A stretch of 64,000 bases of DNA from Clostridiales bacterium (GTDB lineage Bacteria > Bacillota > Clostridia > Oscillospirales > UBA644): NCBI GenBank assembly GCA_016281915.1, contig JAEEJO010000074.1, positions 1 to 64,000 of the forward strand. The letters are read 5' to 3'. Each line of letters starts with the position of its first letter. Position 1 is the stretch's first letter. Both the position numbers and the translations under genes were made by a program. Shown piece after piece: positions 52,363 through 61,016 of the stretch. Under the pieces are notes generated by a model. That model was not told the origin of the DNA. It did no database searches and saw only the letters and a program-made list of their open reading frames with translations.

Positions 52363-52377
52363 ATATCAAAAAATATC

Positions 52378-52415
52378 ACCGTTATGGCACAATAAAACGC
52401 CATAACGGTTTTTTT
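52378..52415 (+). terminator. Strong intrinsic terminator before the phage cassette
   Basis: ACCGTTATGGC pairs with GCCATAACGGT around a ten-base loop and is followed by seven Ts. It isolates the GH18 operon from the packaging cassette. Confidence 0.88.
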
Positions 52416-52434
52416 GTTGATAACTTTGATAATT

Positions 52435-52463
52435 TTGCGGGTAAAATCGTGGTATTATATATA
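52435..52463 (+). promoter_or_regulatory. Possible promoter of the phage packaging cassette
   Basis: TTGCGG (52435-52440), a 17-bp spacer and TATATA (52458-52463) form the best pair between the terminator and the small terminase. The -35 box is poor. Confidence 0.3.
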
Positions 52464-52521
52464 TGCGGATATGCGAAAGGTACCGCGCAGTCCGCAAAGC
52501 GTATGAAAGAGGGAATTAAAA

Positions 52522-52836
52522 ATCAGAAAGAAAAAAGAAAAGATCACGGAAGAAAGGATCATTCAGGAACTTGCGAAGATAGCTTTCGACGATATCACGA
52601 ATTATCTTTCGTTTTTTTGCGACGAAAACGGTGAAACGAAGATAGAGATAAAGCAAAGCGACGGTCTTGACACGCGCGCGGTGGCAGAGATAACAAACTC
52701 AAGGTCCGGATTCCGCTTTAAGCTTTACAACAAGCAGCAGGCGCTTCTGAAGCTTGGCGACTATCTCGGGCTCTGGAAGCGGACGCCTGAAGAAGAGACG
52801 GAAGATCTTGACGAGCTGGAAATACTCTGTCCGTGA
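52522..52836 (+). CDS. Phage terminase small subunit, N-terminally truncated, non-standard start
   Basis: The frame from 52507 to the TGA at 52834 has no ATG, GTG or TTG near its start. A good site AGAGGGA lies 7 bases before an ATC codon at 52522, taken as the provisional start; this gives 104 residues. The sequence KITEERIIQELAKIAF... and KLYNKQQALLKLGDYLGLW is the C-terminal half of PBSX-type small terminases. The usual N-terminal DNA-binding helix-turn-helix is absent in this frame. A neighbouring frame around 52413-52530 reads GYAKGTAQSAKR, like that lost helix, suggesting a past frameshift. It overlaps the large terminase start (GTGA). Confidence 0.65.
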   Translation: MRKKKEKITEERIIQELAKIAFDDITNYLSFFCDENGETKIEIKQSDGLDTRAVAEITNSRSGFRFKLYNKQQALLKLGDYLGLWKRTPEEETEDLDELEILCP

Positions 52837-54134
52837 AAAAAAGAAAAACCATACCGTGGCAGCCGCTTTCGCCAAAGCATAAAAATTATATCCGCAATTG
52901 CATGAGCCACACTTTCAATTTTGCCGAAGGCGCCGTCCGTTCGGGCAAAACAATAGCAAACGTGCTCGCATTTTCGTTTCTTCTCGAAAAATCGCCTGAC
53001 AGGCTTCATCTTGCAACGGGAACTACGCTTTCCGCCGCGCTTACTAATATCGGAGACTGCAACGGTTTCGGGCTTGAGCATATTTTCCGCGGAAGATGCC
53101 GATGGGGAAGATATAAAGGCAATACGGCGCTGTTTGTCAAAACACGGTCAGGAGAAAAAACGGTTGTTTTCGCGGGAGGCGGAAAGGCGGACAGCTACAA
53201 GCGGATACGCGGCAATTCTTACGGGATATGGATCGCTACGGAGGTAAACAAGCACTTCATATCGGGGGATGACAGGTGCTTTATCGACGAAGCTTTCAAC
53301 CGTCAGCTTGCAGCGAAAATGCGGCGCGTGCTGTGGGATTTCAATCCCGATTACCCAACGCATCCGATCTATTCCGGCTACGTTGACAGGTATATTGCTT
53401 CCGGTCTTGACGTGAATCACGAAAAATTCCGTATCAGCGATAATCTTTCCGTTTCCGCCGAAAGGCGCGCGGAGATCGAGGCTCAGTATGAACCGGGAAG
53501 TTTTCTTTATAAACGCGCTATCCTGGGTGAGCGCGCCGCTGCGCAGGGTCTTATATTTCCCCTGTTCGCTGCCGATCCGGATAAATGGATCGTCTCTTCT
53601 GTGCCAGACGACGTTTCGCAGATTATCATAGGGGCAGATTACGGCGGAAACAACTCCGCCTCAGCCTTTGTAGCGGTCGGACTGAGAAAAGGCGAAAACG
53701 GCGTTGTTATTCTGAAAGACAGAAGAATAAAAGGACGGAAGGGCGAAATTTCGCCGGATATGATAGAAAACGAGTTTATTGCGTTTGTCAAAAGCCTCGT
53801 CAGCGAATTTGATTTTCCCGTTACATACGCTTTTATGGACAGCGAAGCGCAGTATCTTACGGCAGGCGTCGTTAAAGCCGCGAGAAAAGCGGGCTTGAAA
53901 ATTGCGATAGCAGACAGTCTGAAAAAGCCGATCGCAGAGCGTATTTCGATAAAGTCAAGACTGATTTCCCAGCACAGGTGGTCGGTTTATAAAGACTGCG
54001 CAAACGTTATCGCAAGCACCGCAACACAGATGTGGGATATGCACGAGCCTGACAGAAGGCTTGACAACGGCACGTGCGACATAGATACTGCGGACGCTGA
54101 AGAATATGCATGGGAACGGTTTATCAGATGGTAG
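52833..54134 (+). CDS. Phage terminase large subunit (PBSX-type)
   Basis: The 433-residue DNA-packaging motor has an ATPase half with the Walker A-like GAVRSGKTIAN and a nuclease half with IIIGADYGGNNSAS, YAFMDSEAQ and DIDTADAEEYAWERF acidic residues. Length and order match terminases of tailed phages and PBSX-like elements. The GTG start overlaps the small terminase stop by four bases. No frame damage is seen. The portal TTG follows 26 bp after its stop. Confidence 0.93.
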   Translation: MKKRKTIPWQPLSPKHKNYIRNCMSHTFNFAEGAVRSGKTIANVLAFSFLLEKSPDRLHLATGTTLSAALTNIGDCNGFGLEHIFRGRCRWGRYKGNTALFVKTRSGEKTVVFAGGGKADSYKRIRGNSYGIWIATEVNKHFISGDDRCFIDEAFNRQLAAKMRRVLWDFNPDYPTHPIYSGYVDRYIASGLDVNHEKFRISDNLSVSAERRAEIEAQYEPGSFLYKRAILGERAAAQGLIFPLFAADPDKWIVSSVPDDVSQIIIGADYGGNNSASAFVAVGLRKGENGVVILKDRRIKGRKGEISPDMIENEFIAFVKSLVSEFDFPVTYAFMDSEAQYLTAGVVKAARKAGLKIAIADSLKKPIAERISIKSRLISQHRWSVYKDCANVIASTATQMWDMHEPDRRLDNGTCDIDTADAEEYAWERFIRW

Positions 54135-54160
54135 CCGTTCCCGCAAACCGGGAGGAAAAC

Positions 54161-55576
54161 TTGAACTACTCAACAATTTTAAAATGCCTGCAAGAATATT
54201 TCGGCGCAGAAGCCCGCGACGACGGCATGGCTGCGCTTATCGACAGATGGCGTGAATGGTATTCCGGCAATTCGGAAGGATTTCACAAAGTTTTTATCAA
54301 TAACGGGCTTTCCACGGTGTCAAGAAAGATGTTCTCTCTGCATATGGCAAAGCGCGTCTGCGAAGACTGGGCGAACCTTCTTCTTAACGAGAAGACCCTG
54401 ATTTCGGTGTCGGACGAAAAGGCGGCGGAATTTATCAACGGAAAAAACGGCTCTTCGGGGCTTTTACGCAGCGTTGATTTTGCCTCGCAGATGAACCGTC
54501 TTGTCGAAAAAGCGTTTGCTCTCGGCACAGGCGCAGTCGTTTGCGGCATAGACGGTATTTTTACAGACAGGAGCGGGAATGCGGAAAAGTCACAAAACGC
54601 GTCGGTAAGGTTTGACTATGCAGAAGCGGGAGAAATATTCCCGATTTCATGGTCCGGTGACGACATAACGGAAGCGGCTTTTACTCGTCTTTCGGTCGAA
54701 AACGGTGAAACGCTCCTTTATATCCAGGCACATCTTATCGAAAACGGCGAATACGTTATCTACAACCGCTGCTTTTCCGAAAGGGACGGGCTGCGTGAAG
54801 AGCCGCTGCCGGAAGGAATGGCCGGCGTTCTCAGAACGGGCTCTGTTGTGCCGTGGTTTTCTGTTATAAAGCCCAACACCGTCAACCATCTCGTTCCGTC
54901 CTCCCCTATGGGGATCTCTGTTTTTGCAGACGCAACGGACGTAATAAAAGGCATAGATCTTTGTTATGACAGCTTGAATATGGAGTTTGTGCTCGGCAAA
55001 AAAATGGTCTTTCTGCGGAGAGATCTTCTTGATAAAGACGATGACGGAAACTTTTATGCGCCGCAGGATACAAACAGACAGCTTTTTATGTATCTTGGCG
55101 ATAAAGCGCTTGACGGAGATATGCTGCCTCAGGAATTCAATCCCACTCTTCGTGTGGAGGACCATGTGAAATGCATACAGGAGCAGATGAATTATCTCTC
55201 GTCAAAATGCGGCTTCGGCGAAAGGTATTACAGGTTCGATTCGTCAAACGTTGTTACGGCTACGCAGATAAACAGTGAAAACTCCACGCTTTTCCGTTCA
55301 GTAAAAAAACATGAGATAATTCTCGAAAAGGCGATCCGCGAGGCGGTGAACGCAGCCCTTTATATCGGCAGAGCTTTTCTCGGGAAAGATTACGGCGAAA
55401 ATTCAGGCGTTAACGTTATATTCGACGACAGCGTTATAGAAGATAAGGCGTCAGCTCAGGCAAGAGATCTTGAGCTTGTCAGAGCCGGAATAATGGCGCC
55501 GTATGAATTTCGCGTTAAATACTTCGGAGAGGACGAAAAGACGGCAAAATTGATCATTTCGGAGGAATGCAGATGA
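54161..55576 (+). CDS. Phage portal protein (SPP1 gp6-like)
   Basis: The 471-residue protein matches SPP1-type portals, the dodecameric ring through which DNA enters the head. Features include the N-terminal LIDRWREWYSGN segment, KRVCEDWANLLLNEK, a central ISWSGDDITEA, and the C-terminal stem and crown region with TATQINSENSTLFRSVKKHE. TTG 54161 is chosen because GGGAGG lies 5 bases before it; in-frame codons upstream overlap the terminase. It ends in the ATGA overlap with the scaffold gene. Confidence 0.9.
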   Translation: MNYSTILKCLQEYFGAEARDDGMAALIDRWREWYSGNSEGFHKVFINNGLSTVSRKMFSLHMAKRVCEDWANLLLNEKTLISVSDEKAAEFINGKNGSSGLLRSVDFASQMNRLVEKAFALGTGAVVCGIDGIFTDRSGNAEKSQNASVRFDYAEAGEIFPISWSGDDITEAAFTRLSVENGETLLYIQAHLIENGEYVIYNRCFSERDGLREEPLPEGMAGVLRTGSVVPWFSVIKPNTVNHLVPSSPMGISVFADATDVIKGIDLCYDSLNMEFVLGKKMVFLRRDLLDKDDDGNFYAPQDTNRQLFMYLGDKALDGDMLPQEFNPTLRVEDHVKCIQEQMNYLSSKCGFGERYYRFDSSNVVTATQINSENSTLFRSVKKHEIILEKAIREAVNAALYIGRAFLGKDYGENSGVNVIFDDSVIEDKASAQARDLELVRAGIMAPYEFRVKYFGEDEKTAKLIISEECR

Positions 55577-56016
55577 AAACTGACATTATCAGATCGGTAT
55601 TTTCAGGAGAAAGCATCGATTATGAAACGTTTGAAAAAAGACTGGGCGAAGAAGGCTTCGGTATAGAGGAGATCAACGCCGAGGAAAGGTCCGCGCTCGA
55701 AAAAGAGCTTGAATATACCAGAAACGAGTGGAAAATCGAGCTGTCTCTTGCAAGAAACAGAGCAAAAAACATAAAAGCCGCACGAGCTATGCTTGATGAA
55801 AGCGAGCTTTTCGACGAAAAAGGGCTCAGCGACGAACGTCTGAGCGAGCAGACGCAGCGCCTCAGAGAGGAAAACCCGTGGCTATTTGAAGAGGACGCGC
55901 CAAAGGCAAAAAGCGTTTCAACTTTTCTGCCGCAGTCACGCGCCGTTCTTCGCGATCCGTCGCAGATGAGTGACGATGAATATTATAAAAACATAATGAA
56001 AGGTGAAAACAAATAA
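55573..56016 (+). CDS. Phage scaffolding-like protein
   Basis: The 147-residue, highly charged helical protein sits between portal and coat, the standard place for a scaffold. It has long Glu/Lys/Arg-rich helices (LEKELEYTRNEWKIEL, ARNRAKNIKAAR), a Pro-rich linker and a C-terminal DPSQMSDDEYYKNIMKG motif typical of Gp20/DUF4355-type scaffolds. ATG 55573 follows GGAGGA and overlaps the portal stop. Its last base is the first base of the coat ATG. Scaffolds guide coat assembly and leave the procapsid. Confidence 0.75.
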   Translation: MKTDIIRSVFSGESIDYETFEKRLGEEGFGIEEINAEERSALEKELEYTRNEWKIELSLARNRAKNIKAARAMLDESELFDEKGLSDERLSEQTQRLREENPWLFEEDAPKAKSVSTFLPQSRAVLRDPSQMSDDEYYKNIMKGENK

Positions 56017-57110
56017 TGGCAAACACATTTCTTACCGTTCAGCAGATCGCCCGCGCGGCGCTGCCGATACTTCACGACAATCTTGTATTCCCCGCGCTTT
56101 CCTATAAGGAATTCTGCGGCGGAATGGGCAAAAAGGGAGACGTTGTGCAGATAAAAAAGCCGGCGGTATATTCCGCAGACGAGTTTACAAACGAAATATC
56201 CGTTCAGGATATAAAGGAAAACAGCGTTCTTGTCACGCTTGACAAAATAGCGGACGTTTCCGTAGAGCTTACCGCGAAGGAAATGGCGCTTGATCTTGAG
56301 GATTTTACAAAGCAGGTCATAGCTCCAGCAGCCGCGGCTATTGCGGAAAAGATAAACGCCGACGGTCTTGCGCTTTATAAAGACATTCCCTACACCTGCG
56401 GCACCGCCGGCACTACCCCTTCCGGGATAGAAACTTTCGCTGCCGTATCAAAGGCTCTCAACGATGCAAAAGCGCCTCTTTCAGACCGTTTTTGCGTATG
56501 GAACAGCGCAGCCCTTGCGTCTTTTCAGAGTGATGCCGCTATAATTTCCGCCGAAAAATGCGGAACGACAAGGGCTCTTCGAAACGGTTCGATAGGCAGA
56601 CTTATCGGGCTTGAAAATTATATGTCCCAGCAGGTCTGCACACATACAAAGGGAACTCTTTCAGGTACTCTTAAAATCGCGGAAGCCGCAGAGGCAGGTT
56701 CGGACGCTATAAAGATATCGTGCACTTCGGGAACGCTCGTAAAGGGAGATATCCTTGTGATAAATGATTCAGAATACGTCGTTTTGCAGGACGCGGCAGC
56801 AGCATCGTCGTCTGTAACGGCAAAAATATATCCGTGCGTTCCCGAATCGGGATTTGCGGCGCAGTCCCCCGTATCACTTATGGGAGACCATGCGGCGAAC
56901 CTCGCGTTTCACAAAAACGCTTTCGGCTTTGTTTCACGTCCGCTCGAAAAAGCGCGCGGCGCAGAAAGCTACGTGACCTCTTTTGACGGAATATCTCTGC
57001 GAGTTACTTTCGCCTACGATATTTCCACAAAAAAGCAGACCATGTCAGTAGACACTCTTTACGGCTTTAAAACGCTTTATCCCGAGCTTGCTGTCCGCGT
57101 TCTGGGCTGA
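56016..57110 (+). CDS. P22-type phage major coat protein
   Basis: The 364-residue protein begins MANTFLTVQQIARAALPIL and continues GDVVQIKKPAVYSA, the signature of P22 gp5-like HK97-fold coat proteins. VELTAKEMALDLEDFTKQVIAP is the spine-helix region, and an Ig-like or insertion-type beta domain (KIAEAAEAGSDAIKISC...) is seen near residues 210-285. There is no prohead protease gene, consistent with P22-type capsids that mature without cleavage. The frame is intact. It overlaps the scaffold by one base. Confidence 0.9.
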   Translation: MANTFLTVQQIARAALPILHDNLVFPALSYKEFCGGMGKKGDVVQIKKPAVYSADEFTNEISVQDIKENSVLVTLDKIADVSVELTAKEMALDLEDFTKQVIAPAAAAIAEKINADGLALYKDIPYTCGTAGTTPSGIETFAAVSKALNDAKAPLSDRFCVWNSAALASFQSDAAIISAEKCGTTRALRNGSIGRLIGLENYMSQQVCTHTKGTLSGTLKIAEAAEAGSDAIKISCTSGTLVKGDILVINDSEYVVLQDAAAASSSVTAKIYPCVPESGFAAQSPVSLMGDHAANLAFHKNAFGFVSRPLEKARGAESYVTSFDGISLRVTFAYDISTKKQTMSVDTLYGFKTLYPELAVRVLG

Positions 57111-57112
57111 TC

Positions 57113-57496
57113 ATGGCATTTATAGATTATGAATACTATATCGGCGAATATATCGGCACTCCGATCCCTCCCGAAGATTTTGCGCTTCTTGCCGAAAGGG
57201 CGTGCGATATCATAGACTGTATAACGTCGGGACGCGCCGGAAAAGCAGCGGAAAAAGGCTGCAAAAAAATGATTTCCGCAGCAAAGAAGGCGGCGTGCGC
57301 TCAGACGGAATATCTTTATTCTCTTGGCGGGACGGAATATCTCGGCATAACGGGAAAAGAGCTTTCGAGAGAGGAAATAGGCAACGCGGCGATATCCTAC
57401 AAGCACGAAAAAGGCGTTTCTTATCTCGGCGTTCCCGTTTCGGGTCTTGCGCTGATGTATCTTGCCTGCGGCGGACTTACCGCAAAGGGGTTATGA
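57113..57496 (+). CDS. Phage head-tail connector (adaptor)-like protein
   Basis: The 127-residue helical protein follows the coat gene, where gp15/gp6-type adaptors are found. It begins MAFIDYEYYIGEY, has two central helices around LLAERACDIIDCI and MISAAKKAACAQTEYLY, and ends in LALMYLACGGLTAKGL, a pattern seen in head-tail connector proteins. No clear Shine-Dalgarno precedes the ATG, which lies 2 bp after the coat stop. Its stop overlaps the next ATG. Confidence 0.65.
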   Translation: MAFIDYEYYIGEYIGTPIPPEDFALLAERACDIIDCITSGRAGKAAEKGCKKMISAAKKAACAQTEYLYSLGGTEYLGITGKELSREEIGNAAISYKHEKGVSYLGVPVSGLALMYLACGGLTAKGL

Positions 57497-57648
57497 TGGA
57501 AGATTTTGATAAAATAATCAGAGGTCTTATTTCCGGTCCGGCGGAAACCGGATCGGAATATAAAGACAGGATACGCGATCTTGCCGAAGAAATAGGCAGA
57601 CAAATAGTAAAAATACTGATAGAATCCGGTCTTATCGACCAAAGATAA
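57493..57648 (+). CDS. Small phage-cassette protein, unknown
   Basis: The 51-residue charged helical protein (MMEDFDKIIRGLIS...IVKILIESGLIDQR) is not recognised. AAAGGGG lies before the ATG, and the ATGA overlap with the preceding connector gene supports translation. Short helical proteins often occur in phage head-tail joining regions, but no role can be assigned. A long hairpin follows its stop. Confidence 0.6.
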   Translation: MMEDFDKIIRGLISGPAETGSEYKDRIRDLAEEIGRQIVKILIESGLIDQR

Positions 57649-57654
57649 AATCAC

Positions 57655-57686
57655 GCGAACGGGAAAACTGTGCTTTTTCCGTTCGC
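57655..57686 (+). other. Long perfect hairpin inside the packaging operon
   Basis: GCGAACGGGAAAA pairs with TTTTTCCGTTCGC (13 bp with one G-U) around the loop CTGTGC. No T-tract follows on plus, so it is not a normal terminator. It sits in the only sizeable gap of the cassette and may be a processing or stability element. Confidence 0.6.
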
Positions 57687-57706
57687 AGTCTGTAAAGGAT
57701 GGTAAA

Positions 57707-58147
57707 ATGTTTGATAAAATAATGAAAAGCCCGGTCACGGTATACCATAAAACAGGAGAGAACGCAGACGGACGGGGCGAATACGAAAGATTTTTCATAA
57801 GATCCGCAAGATTTGAGCGAAAAGAGGGAGTGAGACCCACAGCCGCGGGACTTTTGCCTTATAACAGCTTCAAGCTTTTTGTCAGGGCGGGCAGAAAAGA
57901 AAGACCTGTTTATGCAAATAAAGCCGATTACGAGGCTTTGACCCCTCCCGCAAGAAAGCTTTGCTGGACAGTTGCGGAGGGCGACGTGATAACGCTGGGA
58001 AACACGTCTTTTTCTTTCGGTGAAGACAGCGCTGACGATATAAAGAGCGAATGCGAGATCTTTACCGTAAATTCCGTGCTTGAAGACGCTCTTTCGTCTG
58101 AAAAGATAGTGGAAATAAGCGGAAGAGGAAGGGTGTTTTATACATGA
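57707..58147 (+). CDS. Phage head-closure-like protein
   Basis: The 146-residue beta-rich protein lies where stopper or head-closure proteins are encoded. It begins MFDKIMKSPVTVYHKTGEN and includes NSFKLFVRAG and WTVAEGDVITLGN, a layout seen in small minor capsid proteins of Clostridia phages. No domain is firmly recognised. AAAGGATGG precedes ATG 57707. Its ATGA stop overlaps the next gene. Confidence 0.55.
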   Translation: MFDKIMKSPVTVYHKTGENADGRGEYERFFIRSARFERKEGVRPTAAGLLPYNSFKLFVRAGRKERPVYANKADYEALTPPARKLCWTVAEGDVITLGNTSFSFGEDSADDIKSECEIFTVNSVLEDALSSEKIVEISGRGRVFYT

Positions 58148-58548
58148 CGGAATCAATTGAAAAAAAGCTTTCCGCGTGGCTTTCTTCTTTTTCCGCTCTT
58201 CCCAGGGTGAATTCGGAATTCCTGCCAAAAAGAAACGGAGAGCTTTCGCTGAGAATAAAGAAAGGGCCTGAAACTGTCAGAAGATACGTTTTCGGCGGCG
58301 CCGTGCTCAGATGCGAATTTGCTCTTCGCGTACGCGTTTCGGATTACGACGCAAACACGAGAGGAAGAGGACCGGAAATCCTTTACACCGCGGGACAGAT
58401 CATAGAAAGCTCGCTTTCGGCTCTTGACGGAATATGCGGCTGCTTTTCGGGAATAACGGAATATCCTTCTATGGTTCAGAGAACGGATAACGGCGACTGC
58501 GAATATGAAGGCGTGTTTTACATGGTATATACGGAGGGCTGCAAATGA
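58144..58548 (+). CDS. Phage tail terminator/minor capsid-like protein
   Basis: The 134-residue protein resembles minor capsid or tail-terminator proteins: an N-terminal amphipathic helix (SIEKKLSAWLSSFSAL), the central RYVFGGAVLRCEFALRVRV beta strands, a helix with GQIIESSLSALD, and a closing YEGVFYMVYTEG strand. These proteins cap the tail tube and join it to the head. ATGA overlaps occur at both ends. Confidence 0.55.
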   Translation: MTESIEKKLSAWLSSFSALPRVNSEFLPKRNGELSLRIKKGPETVRRYVFGGAVLRCEFALRVRVSDYDANTRGRGPEILYTAGQIIESSLSALDGICGCFSGITEYPSMVQRTDNGDCEYEGVFYMVYTEGCK

Positions 58549-59003
58549 ATACGGCAAAAGCTGGCGATATGAAGATCGCCATTAGGGTGGCATACGAAAC
58601 CTTCGCCCCTCTTGAAGCGGGAGTAAAATCGTTTGTAAGAATAATAAGACCCGAAACAAAAACATACCGTCTCATTTTTTCGTCTTCAAGCGAAACGGAA
58701 GTTACAGGATATTCTGAAACGGTAAAAATATCCGCAGACCTTGTTTTCGGCGACGCGGCGTGCGAGTATCTTTATTCTCTTGCGGAATCTGCGGGTCGGG
58801 GATGCAAAACCGAGATATTTCTTTATCGCATAGATGATGCAGGGTCGATCCCCGGCAGTTTTTTCGGGAAAAGGTATCCTGTAACGGCGGCGGTAACAAA
58901 AATATCGGGAGAGACCGAAAATTCGGCGCCTTTTTACGGATTTGAGGCTGATCTTTACATTAACGGAGACGGAATAACGGAAGAAAGGGTGATAACGGGT
59001 TGA
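58545..59003 (+). CDS. Probable phage tail tube protein
   Basis: The 152-residue beta-rich protein fits a small tail tube subunit: a strand-rich N-terminal half with TGYSETVKISADLVFGDAA, a short helix YLYSLAES, then EIFLYRID, KRYPVTAAVTKISGE and FYGFEADLYINGDG, the alternating pattern of tube proteins. GGAGGG lies before ATG 58545. It overlaps both neighbours by four bases. No tape-measure gene follows, which is unusual. Confidence 0.5.
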   Translation: MNTAKAGDMKIAIRVAYETFAPLEAGVKSFVRIIRPETKTYRLIFSSSSETEVTGYSETVKISADLVFGDAACEYLYSLAESAGRGCKTEIFLYRIDDAGSIPGSFFGKRYPVTAAVTKISGETENSAPFYGFEADLYINGDGITEERVITG

Positions 59004-60079
59004 GGATATATCTGAATAATTCCGATATTACCGACAGGATCGCTCAAAACTCCGTTCGATGGCGAAGATACGGCGCTTTTCGCTCAGATCTTTCTTTTCG
59101 ACTCGAACCGCTGTTCACAGACGGACTTTCGGCAGAGCACGGCATGCGCGCATACATGATAAACGATTTTTCGCAGACGGTGTGGAGCGGGGTAGTAACG
59201 AGCGTTACCCGGGAATACAGAAGCGACACGGGGTTTACGGCGTCAGTCAGATGCGGCGGACCTGAGGCGATACTGTCGCGCCGGGCAGTCGGTTCGTTTT
59301 CGACCGACGCTCGGACTACGGGTGACGCGGCAAAAACAGTTTTTTTACTTTATCTGTCGAACGCCTCAGACGAAGGGTTTCTCTATAATCCCGCTCTTTT
59401 TACGACGGGAGCGGCGATACAGGGGTATTCAGCTTACGGTAAATCTCTTGCCAGGGTATTTGACGAGCTTGGGGCCGCAGACGGAAGCAGATGGTGGATC
59501 CTGCCTGACGGAACCTTCTTTTTTATGAGCGGAATACCTGTCACCCAGTCGTCTTTCTGCGTTGATTTTACCGAAACTCAAAGCGGAAGGCTTACCGATA
59601 TAACGTCCTTTGAAACGGTAACTTCCGCAGACGGTTACAGAAACGTTCAGTTCGTTGCCGGAAACGGCGTTACAGGCGAAGCGACAAACAGCGCAGAGAT
59701 AAGCAGGATGTCGCGCTTCGGCGGAACCGGAAGATATGAAAACGCGGTCTCCGTGCCGCTTGTTTCTACGGTGGCGGAAGCGAACGCGGCAGCTGCCAAT
59801 ATATTACGCTCATATGAGGAAAACTCTTTCAGGGCGGTTTTTACGACCAATACTGACGGAATTGAGCTTTTTGACCGCATAAGTATAAACGCGCCGCAGT
59901 TCGGGCTTTACGGACTCACGCCGTTTACTGTGACCGAAATCGCGGCGACGGACAGACCGACGGGAGAGAAAAAACTCGCCTTCACCTATTCTGTCACGGC
60001 AAAAATGTCTGATGCGGCAGAGCAGTATGTCCGCCCTGCGGAATATTGGACCGAATCACTGTCAAGAATTTCTCGATGA
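59000..60079 (+). CDS. Phage tail hub/baseplate-like protein
   Basis: The 359-residue protein resembles tail hub proteins of the gp27 or XkdQ type: it begins RIYLNNSDITDRI, has VWSGVVTSVTREY and a sandwich with SVRCGGPEAIL, a central SRWWILPDGTFFF and a C-terminal domain with ANILRSYEENSFRAVFTT and FDRISINAP. The start is TTG 59000, overlapping the previous stop (TTGA). It is the last gene of the cassette; no terminator is visible before the next promoter. Confidence 0.55.
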   Translation: MRIYLNNSDITDRIAQNSVRWRRYGAFRSDLSFRLEPLFTDGLSAEHGMRAYMINDFSQTVWSGVVTSVTREYRSDTGFTASVRCGGPEAILSRRAVGSFSTDARTTGDAAKTVFLLYLSNASDEGFLYNPALFTTGAAIQGYSAYGKSLARVFDELGAADGSRWWILPDGTFFFMSGIPVTQSSFCVDFTETQSGRLTDITSFETVTSADGYRNVQFVAGNGVTGEATNSAEISRMSRFGGTGRYENAVSVPLVSTVAEANAAAANILRSYEENSFRAVFTTNTDGIELFDRISINAPQFGLYGLTPFTVTEIAATDRPTGEKKLAFTYSVTAKMSDAAEQYVRPAEYWTESLSRISR

Positions 60080-60155: not shown

Positions 60156-61016
60156 ATGAAAAAATCCGTAAAGATCGCGCTTGCAGCAGTTGCCGCCATT
60201 GCTCTGGCGGGTATAATAATCGCGGTTGCGCTTTCCGGAAAGAACAGGGAAGAAACATATAATAACGCCGTTTCGATGTATGAAAGCGGCGATCTTAAAG
60301 GCGCATATAAAATGTTTACCGAAATATACGATTATTCTGACAGCGCCGTGTATGCCAAACGGATATACGATGAAACTTTTCTTGAAAACATCCGCGCTCT
60401 CAATAAAGGACAGACGTTATTTTTCGGCAGATATGAGCAGGACGGGAACACTTCAAACGGTCCGGAAGAAATAGAATGGCTCGTTCTTGACGTGCGGGGA
60501 GAAGACGTGCTTGTTATCAGCAAATACGCGCTTGAAGCGCAGCCCTTCGATACCCCTTCGGGAACCTCGGACTGGGAGTCGAGCGCGATACGCCGCTGGC
60601 TCAACAAATCGTTTTTGTTTTTTTCTTTCGACCCTGTTGAGCAGTCAAGGGTCATTGAAACTTTTCTTGAAGACGACTCCGGCAAAACATATGCGACCGC
60701 TGACCGCGTATTTCTTCTGAGCGCAAAGGAAGCGGAAGAATACATGAAGGAAAGAACAGACAGGATATGCGAGGCTACCGACCAGGCAGTTGTTTCCGGC
60801 GTAAGTAAAAAAATCGCGAAAGTGTATGATAAATACGGACGCACGGTAGAAGCCCCCGCAACGTGCAACTGGTGGCTGAGAAGCTGCGGCACAGGTGAAA
60901 ACACAGCGATCAGCGTATATCCCGACGGACAGATAAACAATTCCGGAAACGTTATTTCGGACGATTACCGCGCGGCGCGCCCGGCAATGTGGATATATAC
61001 GGGAACGGATGAATAA
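60156..61016 (+). CDS. DUF6273 protein with N-terminal membrane anchor
   Basis: The 286-residue protein has a hydrophobic N-terminal anchor (about 7-28), a TPR-like helical stretch (YNNAVSMYESGDLKGAYKMF), and a DUF6273 domain: LFFGRYEQD, EEIEWLVLDV, ESSAIRRWLN, VFLLSAKEAEEYM, and the closing WWLRSCG...RPAMWI. This last pattern resembles C-type-lectin-like folds. It probably faces outward. It has its own promoter and AAAGGAG site, so it may be independent of the phage cassette before it. Confidence 0.85.
   Translation: MKKSVKIALAAVAAIALAGIIIAVALSGKNREETYNNAVSMYESGDLKGAYKMFTEIYDYSDSAVYAKRIYDETFLENIRALNKGQTLFFGRYEQDGNTSNGPEEIEWLVLDVRGEDVLVISKYALEAQPFDTPSGTSDWESSAIRRWLNKSFLFFSFDPVEQSRVIETFLEDDSGKTYATADRVFLLSAKEAEEYMKERTDRICEATDQAVVSGVSKKIAKVYDKYGRTVEAPATCNWWLRSCGTGENTAISVYPDGQINNSGNVISDDYRAARPAMWIYTGTDE

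Follow-up and report, generated by a model that had tools for sequence, protein, structure and literature searches.

What keeps a set of phage packaging, head and tail genes intact in a bacterial chromosome when no integrase lies with them? The window analysed here, which comprises 64,000 nucleotides (bases 1-64000 of contig C13) of a 2.18 Mb draft genome, G000, from family f1 of the Clostridia, contains such a cassette, and a preliminary description had proposed that it is a retained particle-forming module, possibly a gene transfer agent (GTA), with its other parts elsewhere in the genome. A GTA is a tamed virus whose particles take up random host DNA, in amounts insufficient to specify the entire element, and hand it on to recipient cells. 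The evidence set out below makes it almost certain that the cassette is a domesticated, vertically inherited and selected phage-packaging module and, as far as sequence can tell, it probably functions as a GTA.

The cassette and its boundaries

The cassette consists of eleven consecutive genes at 52522-60079, all on the forward strand and with zero internal stops (Table 1), and its GC and GC3 are the same as those of the neighbouring genes, that is, host-like. All of the packaging, head and tail genes named in the preliminary description are present and unbroken on the one strand, with the correction that the first of them does not begin at 52416, since an alignment of six species puts its start at an ATC codon at 52522. 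The coupling of genes by overlaps of 1-4 bases holds for six of the ten junctions and not for the other four, which are -25, -10, +2 and +58. The true start of the portal gene is probably the TTG at 54161, because the alignment of its relatives begins at residue 18. The label of hub-like gene was well chosen, as the predicted fold (pLDDT 86) has its best PDB matches in the hubs of phages Mu and T4, contractile systems and VgrG, the Foldseek matches to phage and VgrG hubs having an E of about 1e-16 and a TM of up to 0.7; a sequence search of solved structures with TerS and the hub gave zero matches.

In the same six-species alignment the cassette promoter has an extended -10 element, TGRTATTAT, and is accompanied by a conserved GCGAARGGKACC leader, a motif which among the loci examined is found in the cassette leader only. 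The leader was considered as a riboswitch and rejected, an Rfam search giving no match at the gathering score.

The integrase, repressor, lysis genes and att sites by which a temperate prophage is recognised are all lacking at the locus, as are a replication gene and a tape measure, much as the preliminary description had stated; no direct repeats were found flanking the cassette and there is no tRNA within the window. What is present is a phage-derived head-tail cluster in the chromosome, free of integration and replication genes, and both features are expected of a GTA.

Table 1. Features of the cassette, its flanks and the second lysis locus; positions are those of the window unless a locus is given
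Feature	Position	Strand	Evidence
GH18 terminator, then cassette leader and promoter	52363..52521	+	alignment of six species
TerS, 104 aa, ATC start	52522..52836	+	Terminase_2 E=1.5e-10; start alignment; 16-member alignment
TerL, 433 aa, Walker A AVRSGKT intact	52833..54134	+	phrog_2 E=6e-22
Portal, SPP1/phrog_533 type	54110..55576	+	SPP1_portal E=1e-9
Scaffold	55567..56016	+	Phage_scaffold E=3.6e-10
P22-type coat (major capsid), 364 aa	56016..57110	+	P22_CoatProtein PF11651 E=9e-48; phrog_283 E=5.5e-83
Head-tail adaptor	57113..57496	+	phrog_541 E=1.4e-19
Conserved 51-aa protein	57493..57648	+	relatives 52-68% identical
Head closure/stopper-like (weak label)	57707..58147	+	phrog_3366 (unannotated family) E=5.7e-12; position
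Tail completion/terminator-like (weak label)	58144..58548	+	phrog_3266, weak, E=0.009
Tail tube	58545..59003	+	phrog_820 major tail protein E=3.6e-6
Tail hub (Mu gp44/T4 gp27/VgrG fold)	59000..60079	+	predicted structure, Foldseek
DUF6273 protein, membrane-anchored	60156..61016	+	PF19789 E=1e-22
XRE and HExxH genes beside amidase/endolysin	L207:2216-3985 (G000:C54)		equivalent site in L205, L206, L208, L245, L246

Distribution, inheritance and selection

When whole genomes were searched for the coat protein there was a single match in each carrier, with 9 of the 10 genomes of the genus and 16 of the 20 of the family being carriers, and in all 16 the coat gene is an open frame whose product is 57-86% identical; the sole genome of the genus with no match is 61% complete. 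The coat gene is absent from three of the seven genera of the family, and since two of the three genomes that represent them are more than 90% complete, losses of the cassette probably occur. Among 394 genomes of the order strong coat matches were restricted to f1, plus one genome each in f20 (48%) and f9 (34%). The carriers are metagenome-assembled Clostridia, and where a source is stated it is the gut of goats, water deer or dairy cattle. Six species have complete flanks, and in these the genes run in the order ABC transporter, methyltransferase-like gene, GH18, cassette, DUF6273 and ackA; in a seventh, G003, the end running from the hub through DUF6273 to ackA sits on a separate contig. Apparent internal stops in the portals of G017 and G018 probably come from the alignment running upstream of the start, the portal ORF of G018 being full-length at 468 aa. 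A scaffold-like gene lies after the hub, and not before the coat, in G012 and G013 (L040:2285-2617; L041:7671-8000).

Trees were built for TerL, portal and coat and for RpoB from the same 14 genomes, and they have 10 of 11 splits in common, the single conflict having a support of 0.23. None of 10,000 label shuffles matched this agreement, the maximum being 4 splits in common, and the cassette and RpoB distances are correlated with a Mantel r of 0.983. The cassette is thus inherited vertically with its host, as a GTA would be. Pairwise dN/dS is 0.02-0.34 across the cassette genes; the values of TerL, portal and coat fall within 0.04-0.11, and those of TerL within 0.04-0.08. Some dS values approach saturation, and the closest pairs, G003-G008 and G009-G004, therefore weigh most; these agree. 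Purifying selection on the structural genes is a further feature that GTAs would be expected to have.

The preliminary description had argued for a retained rather than a decaying module, to be checked by looking for vertical inheritance as opposed to att sites, and the argument has held up, with gene order and frames conserved and the tree following the host. A defective prophage remnant that has stayed intact by chance would account for the missing integrase, repressor, replication genes and tape measure, yet the identical set of functions is missing family-wide, the genes are intact across species with dN/dS far below 1 and their tree is congruent with that of the host; of the explanations considered we find this the least probable.

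The position of the cassette is not constant. Within the genus, G001 and G006 have it at other chromosomal sites, as do the remaining genera, and the surroundings of these cassettes are again common to close relatives; in G001 and G005 other genes precede ackA, and cassette and DUF6273 are both absent beside it. Because the cassette tree still follows the host tree, we read the differing sites as relocation of a resident locus and not as infection. Three findings had been named in advance as speaking against a retained module, namely different loci in close relatives, placement inside longer complete prophages and dN/dS near 1. The first was found in part, in G001 and G006 and in other genera, and is read as relocation; neither of the others was, as none of the f1 cassettes lies within a complete prophage and the dN/dS values are those given above.

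The variation of the locus among genera would also be explained by a satellite or mobile element that is repeatedly acquired and uses a helper phage for its missing parts, and contig C68 of the same genome does contain a siphovirus prophage, unrelated and with a tape measure of 725 aa. Against this, the cassette has its own coat, portal and terminase yet lacks genes for integration or regulation, its tree follows that of the host, and there are neither att repeats nor a tRNA, so that such an element would seem very improbable.

Packaging, lysis and tail genes

The TerS of the window covers positions 56-138 of the 141 in the Terminase_2 profile, positions 1-55 being absent, and TerS is short in all 16 of the cassette members aligned. 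As the match starts only at position 56, the protein is without its N-terminal DNA-binding part. A TerS that lacks the DNA-binding domain is a hallmark common to known GTAs (PMC11841831), and the profile match of the window protein conforms to it. A structure search with the predicted fold of TerS, which is a weak model (pLDDT 67), gave zero matches. The start codon of TerS is ATC or ATA in six species, with a good ribosome site upstream, and ATG in G001; it is possible that this rare and conserved initiator limits TerS.

Lysis genes had been described as absent, which is correct for the cassette locus and not for the genome. In G001, G006 and G013 a holin (Phage_holin_4_1) and an amidase come directly after the hub, and the cassette of genus g7 contains a degenerate amidase, a BppU-like gene, a fibre gene with a DUF6273 tip, a holin-like gene and an NlpC/P60 endolysin. 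In the subclade of the window lysis genes are absent from the cassette, and an endolysin (37-39% to the g7 endolysin) and an amidase-like gene are found together at a second locus, which has an oxidoreductase on one side and a ferredoxin oxidoreductase operon on the other. This second locus is present in G000, G002, G003, G004, G007 and G008, six of the seven species of the subclade, with none detected in G009, and in G007 and G002 a holin-like gene lies between the two lysis genes. It is absent from the draft genomes G001 and G006, which keep their lysis genes in the cassette. The placing of lysis and accessory genes away from the structural cluster, seen here in those six of seven species, is also characteristic of GTAs. 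The proposal that other parts lie elsewhere in the genome is therefore borne out for the lysis genes, which have a conserved locus of their own, and not for a tape measure of the cassette, which was not found.

The second locus also encodes an XRE repressor (HTH_3 E=1e-15) and a 70-aa HExxH protein that has no solid Pfam match. In six of six species the XRE promoter reads TTGACA, then TCAC-N5-GTGA, then TATAAT, and at the equivalent position of the lysis promoter TCAC-N5-GTGA is present in degenerate form. An operator common to the cassette and lysis promoters was rejected, the palindrome not being convincing at the cassette promoter, and the link between regulator and cassette is one of adjacency and similar promoter palindromes only.

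There is no long tail gene in any of the 16 cassettes of the family and, as neither a tape measure nor a fibre gene was found for the cassette in the genome of the window, it is uncertain whether it has a working tail. Genes of the Gp15-like type are normally tail chaperones found beside a tape measure, and genus g7 keeps one with no tape measure adjoining it (L043:12133-12618). The siphovirus prophage on C68 (L220) also carries fibres and a lysin and adjoins a Cas9-like ORF; a weak Terminase_6N match in the genome, tried as a part of the cassette, belongs to this prophage and was rejected.

The gene downstream of the cassette had been taken for a cellular one. It encodes a DUF6273 protein that adjoins the cassette in the GH18/ackA subclade only and is missing beside ackA in sister lineages, and the same domain is found at the tip of the g7 fibre gene (L044:2631-3737). 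DUF6273 was rejected as a marker of the cassette, since the genome has four copies; of these, the one adjoining the cassette is alone in being a possible accessory of it. It is also possible that DUF6273 is a receptor-binding domain.

The failure to identify a fibre or tape measure gene for the genome of the window would suit a capsid module exapted for a role other than transfer, for example the export or storage of DNA. Conservation extends, however, to TerL, portal and hub alike, and sister lineages retain BppU-like, fibre, holin-like and endolysin genes, and we regard exaptation of this kind as improbable.

Known systems and wider occurrence

GTAs with known genes are few beyond the Alphaproteobacteria and Brachyspira, and for Gram-positives only FpGTA and PBSX are cited (PMC12946183). 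Of the systems described so far, FpGTA (I and II) of Faecalibacterium, reported in 2026, comes closest. It has an operon of ~10 kb with TerS, TerL, portal, scaffold and coat, in which TerS has no DNA-binding domain; lysis genes are in a separate second operon and replication genes are lacking. FpGTA is near-ubiquitous in its genus and is described as podovirus-like, with particles that are 40 nm and contain 8-9 kb of host DNA (PMC12946183). The f1 cassette, set beside FpGTA (proteins RCH50849.1 and RCH50851.1) by published description, resembles it in the Clostridia host, the packaging-head operon, the truncated TerS and the two-locus layout of lysis genes. It differs in having tube and hub genes, in spanning a family and in being known from its genes alone. 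With RcGTA and RcGTA-like elements (Rhodogtaviriformidae) it has in common vertical inheritance, purifying selection, a TerS without the DNA-binding domain and lysis and accessory genes that lie outside the main cluster, whereas RcGTA is alphaproteobacterial and has a capsid of another type, a longer cluster and a tape measure.

Another phage domesticated by a Gram-positive is PBSX of Bacillus subtilis, which packages host DNA and is encoded by a larger cluster with a full tail, a regulator and lysis genes; it kills instead of transferring. This precedent, together with FpGTA, where packaging is without proven delivery (PMC12946183), raises the alternative of a similar killing particle, retained for killing competitors of the same kind, with DNA packaged and not delivered; moreover, the subclade of the window has kept the hub but neither fibres nor a tape measure. 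The cassette proteins that evolve most slowly, however, are TerS, TerL, portal and coat, which counts against a killing tail, as this needs no selected DNA-packaging motor, and no sheath set or immunity gene was seen. We therefore consider a killing particle unlikely.

Among 50,697 phage records, homologous coats reach no more than about 40% identity to that of the cassette, the coat of Gordonia phage Morgana being at 39%. The coat of the prophage-like contig L070, which has a similar order of head genes, is at 46%. True phages with a P22-type coat differ in carrying a tape measure, fibres and further phage genes, and prophage-like contigs of IMG/VR that have tape measures match the coat at 46% and below. 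Three "viral" contigs of IMG/VR, L066-L068 (8-13 kb), are pieces of bacterial chromosome with the f1 cassette; L066 and L067 extend into the chromosomal DUF6273 gene and L067 also includes GH18 and the methyltransferase-like gene. The literature searched gave no published description of the f1 cassette lineage.

Under the GTA explanation the cassette would be a structural operon that originated from a tailed phage with a P22-type coat and has been vertically inherited in one family of Clostridia. Switched on in a few cells, it would build a procapsid on the portal with scaffold and coat, TerL with a TerS blind to a pac site would fill the head with any host DNA available, and adaptor, closure, tube and hub would form a very short tail. 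The amidase and endolysin, with a holin in some species, encoded at the second locus beside the XRE-type regulator, would then open the cell and release the particles. We infer host-DNA packaging, the very short tail, regulation and delivery to recipients.

Other compact cassettes are found in the order. Family f19 has a second, unrelated cassette, single-copy in 42 of 63 genomes and 8 of 13 genera (loci L049, L050, L213-L217, L252 and L253), which contains a GP3-type TerS, TerL, a P22-type portal, scaffold, coat and two holin-like genes and has a constant site near lepA in three genera; it is a candidate podovirus-like GTA. In f20 (L047, L211, L212) and in IMG/VR (L071-L073) there are compact elements of 10-13 kb with TerL, portal, coat, hub-like and amidase-like genes, where no integrase was seen and the flanks are cellular (yidC-like, nrdR-like); some of them carry a tape-measure-like gene of 290-320 aa. 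The chances seem evenly balanced that GTAs arose several times in the order, as the f1 cassette, the unrelated f19 cassette and the f20 elements, with that of f1 working without a tape measure.

The f1 lineage would add a family-wide example of a GTA in uncultured gut and rumen Clostridia, and it supplies exact genes for testing. Host-tree congruence, a truncated TerS and lysis genes at a second locus together form a set of criteria that detects GTAs with no similarity to RcGTA and, as several pieces of the cassette are listed as viruses in IMG/VR, counts of viruses include some of them. If GTAs did arise several times in the order, host-run DNA packaging would be a lasting trait of entire families among gut bacteria.
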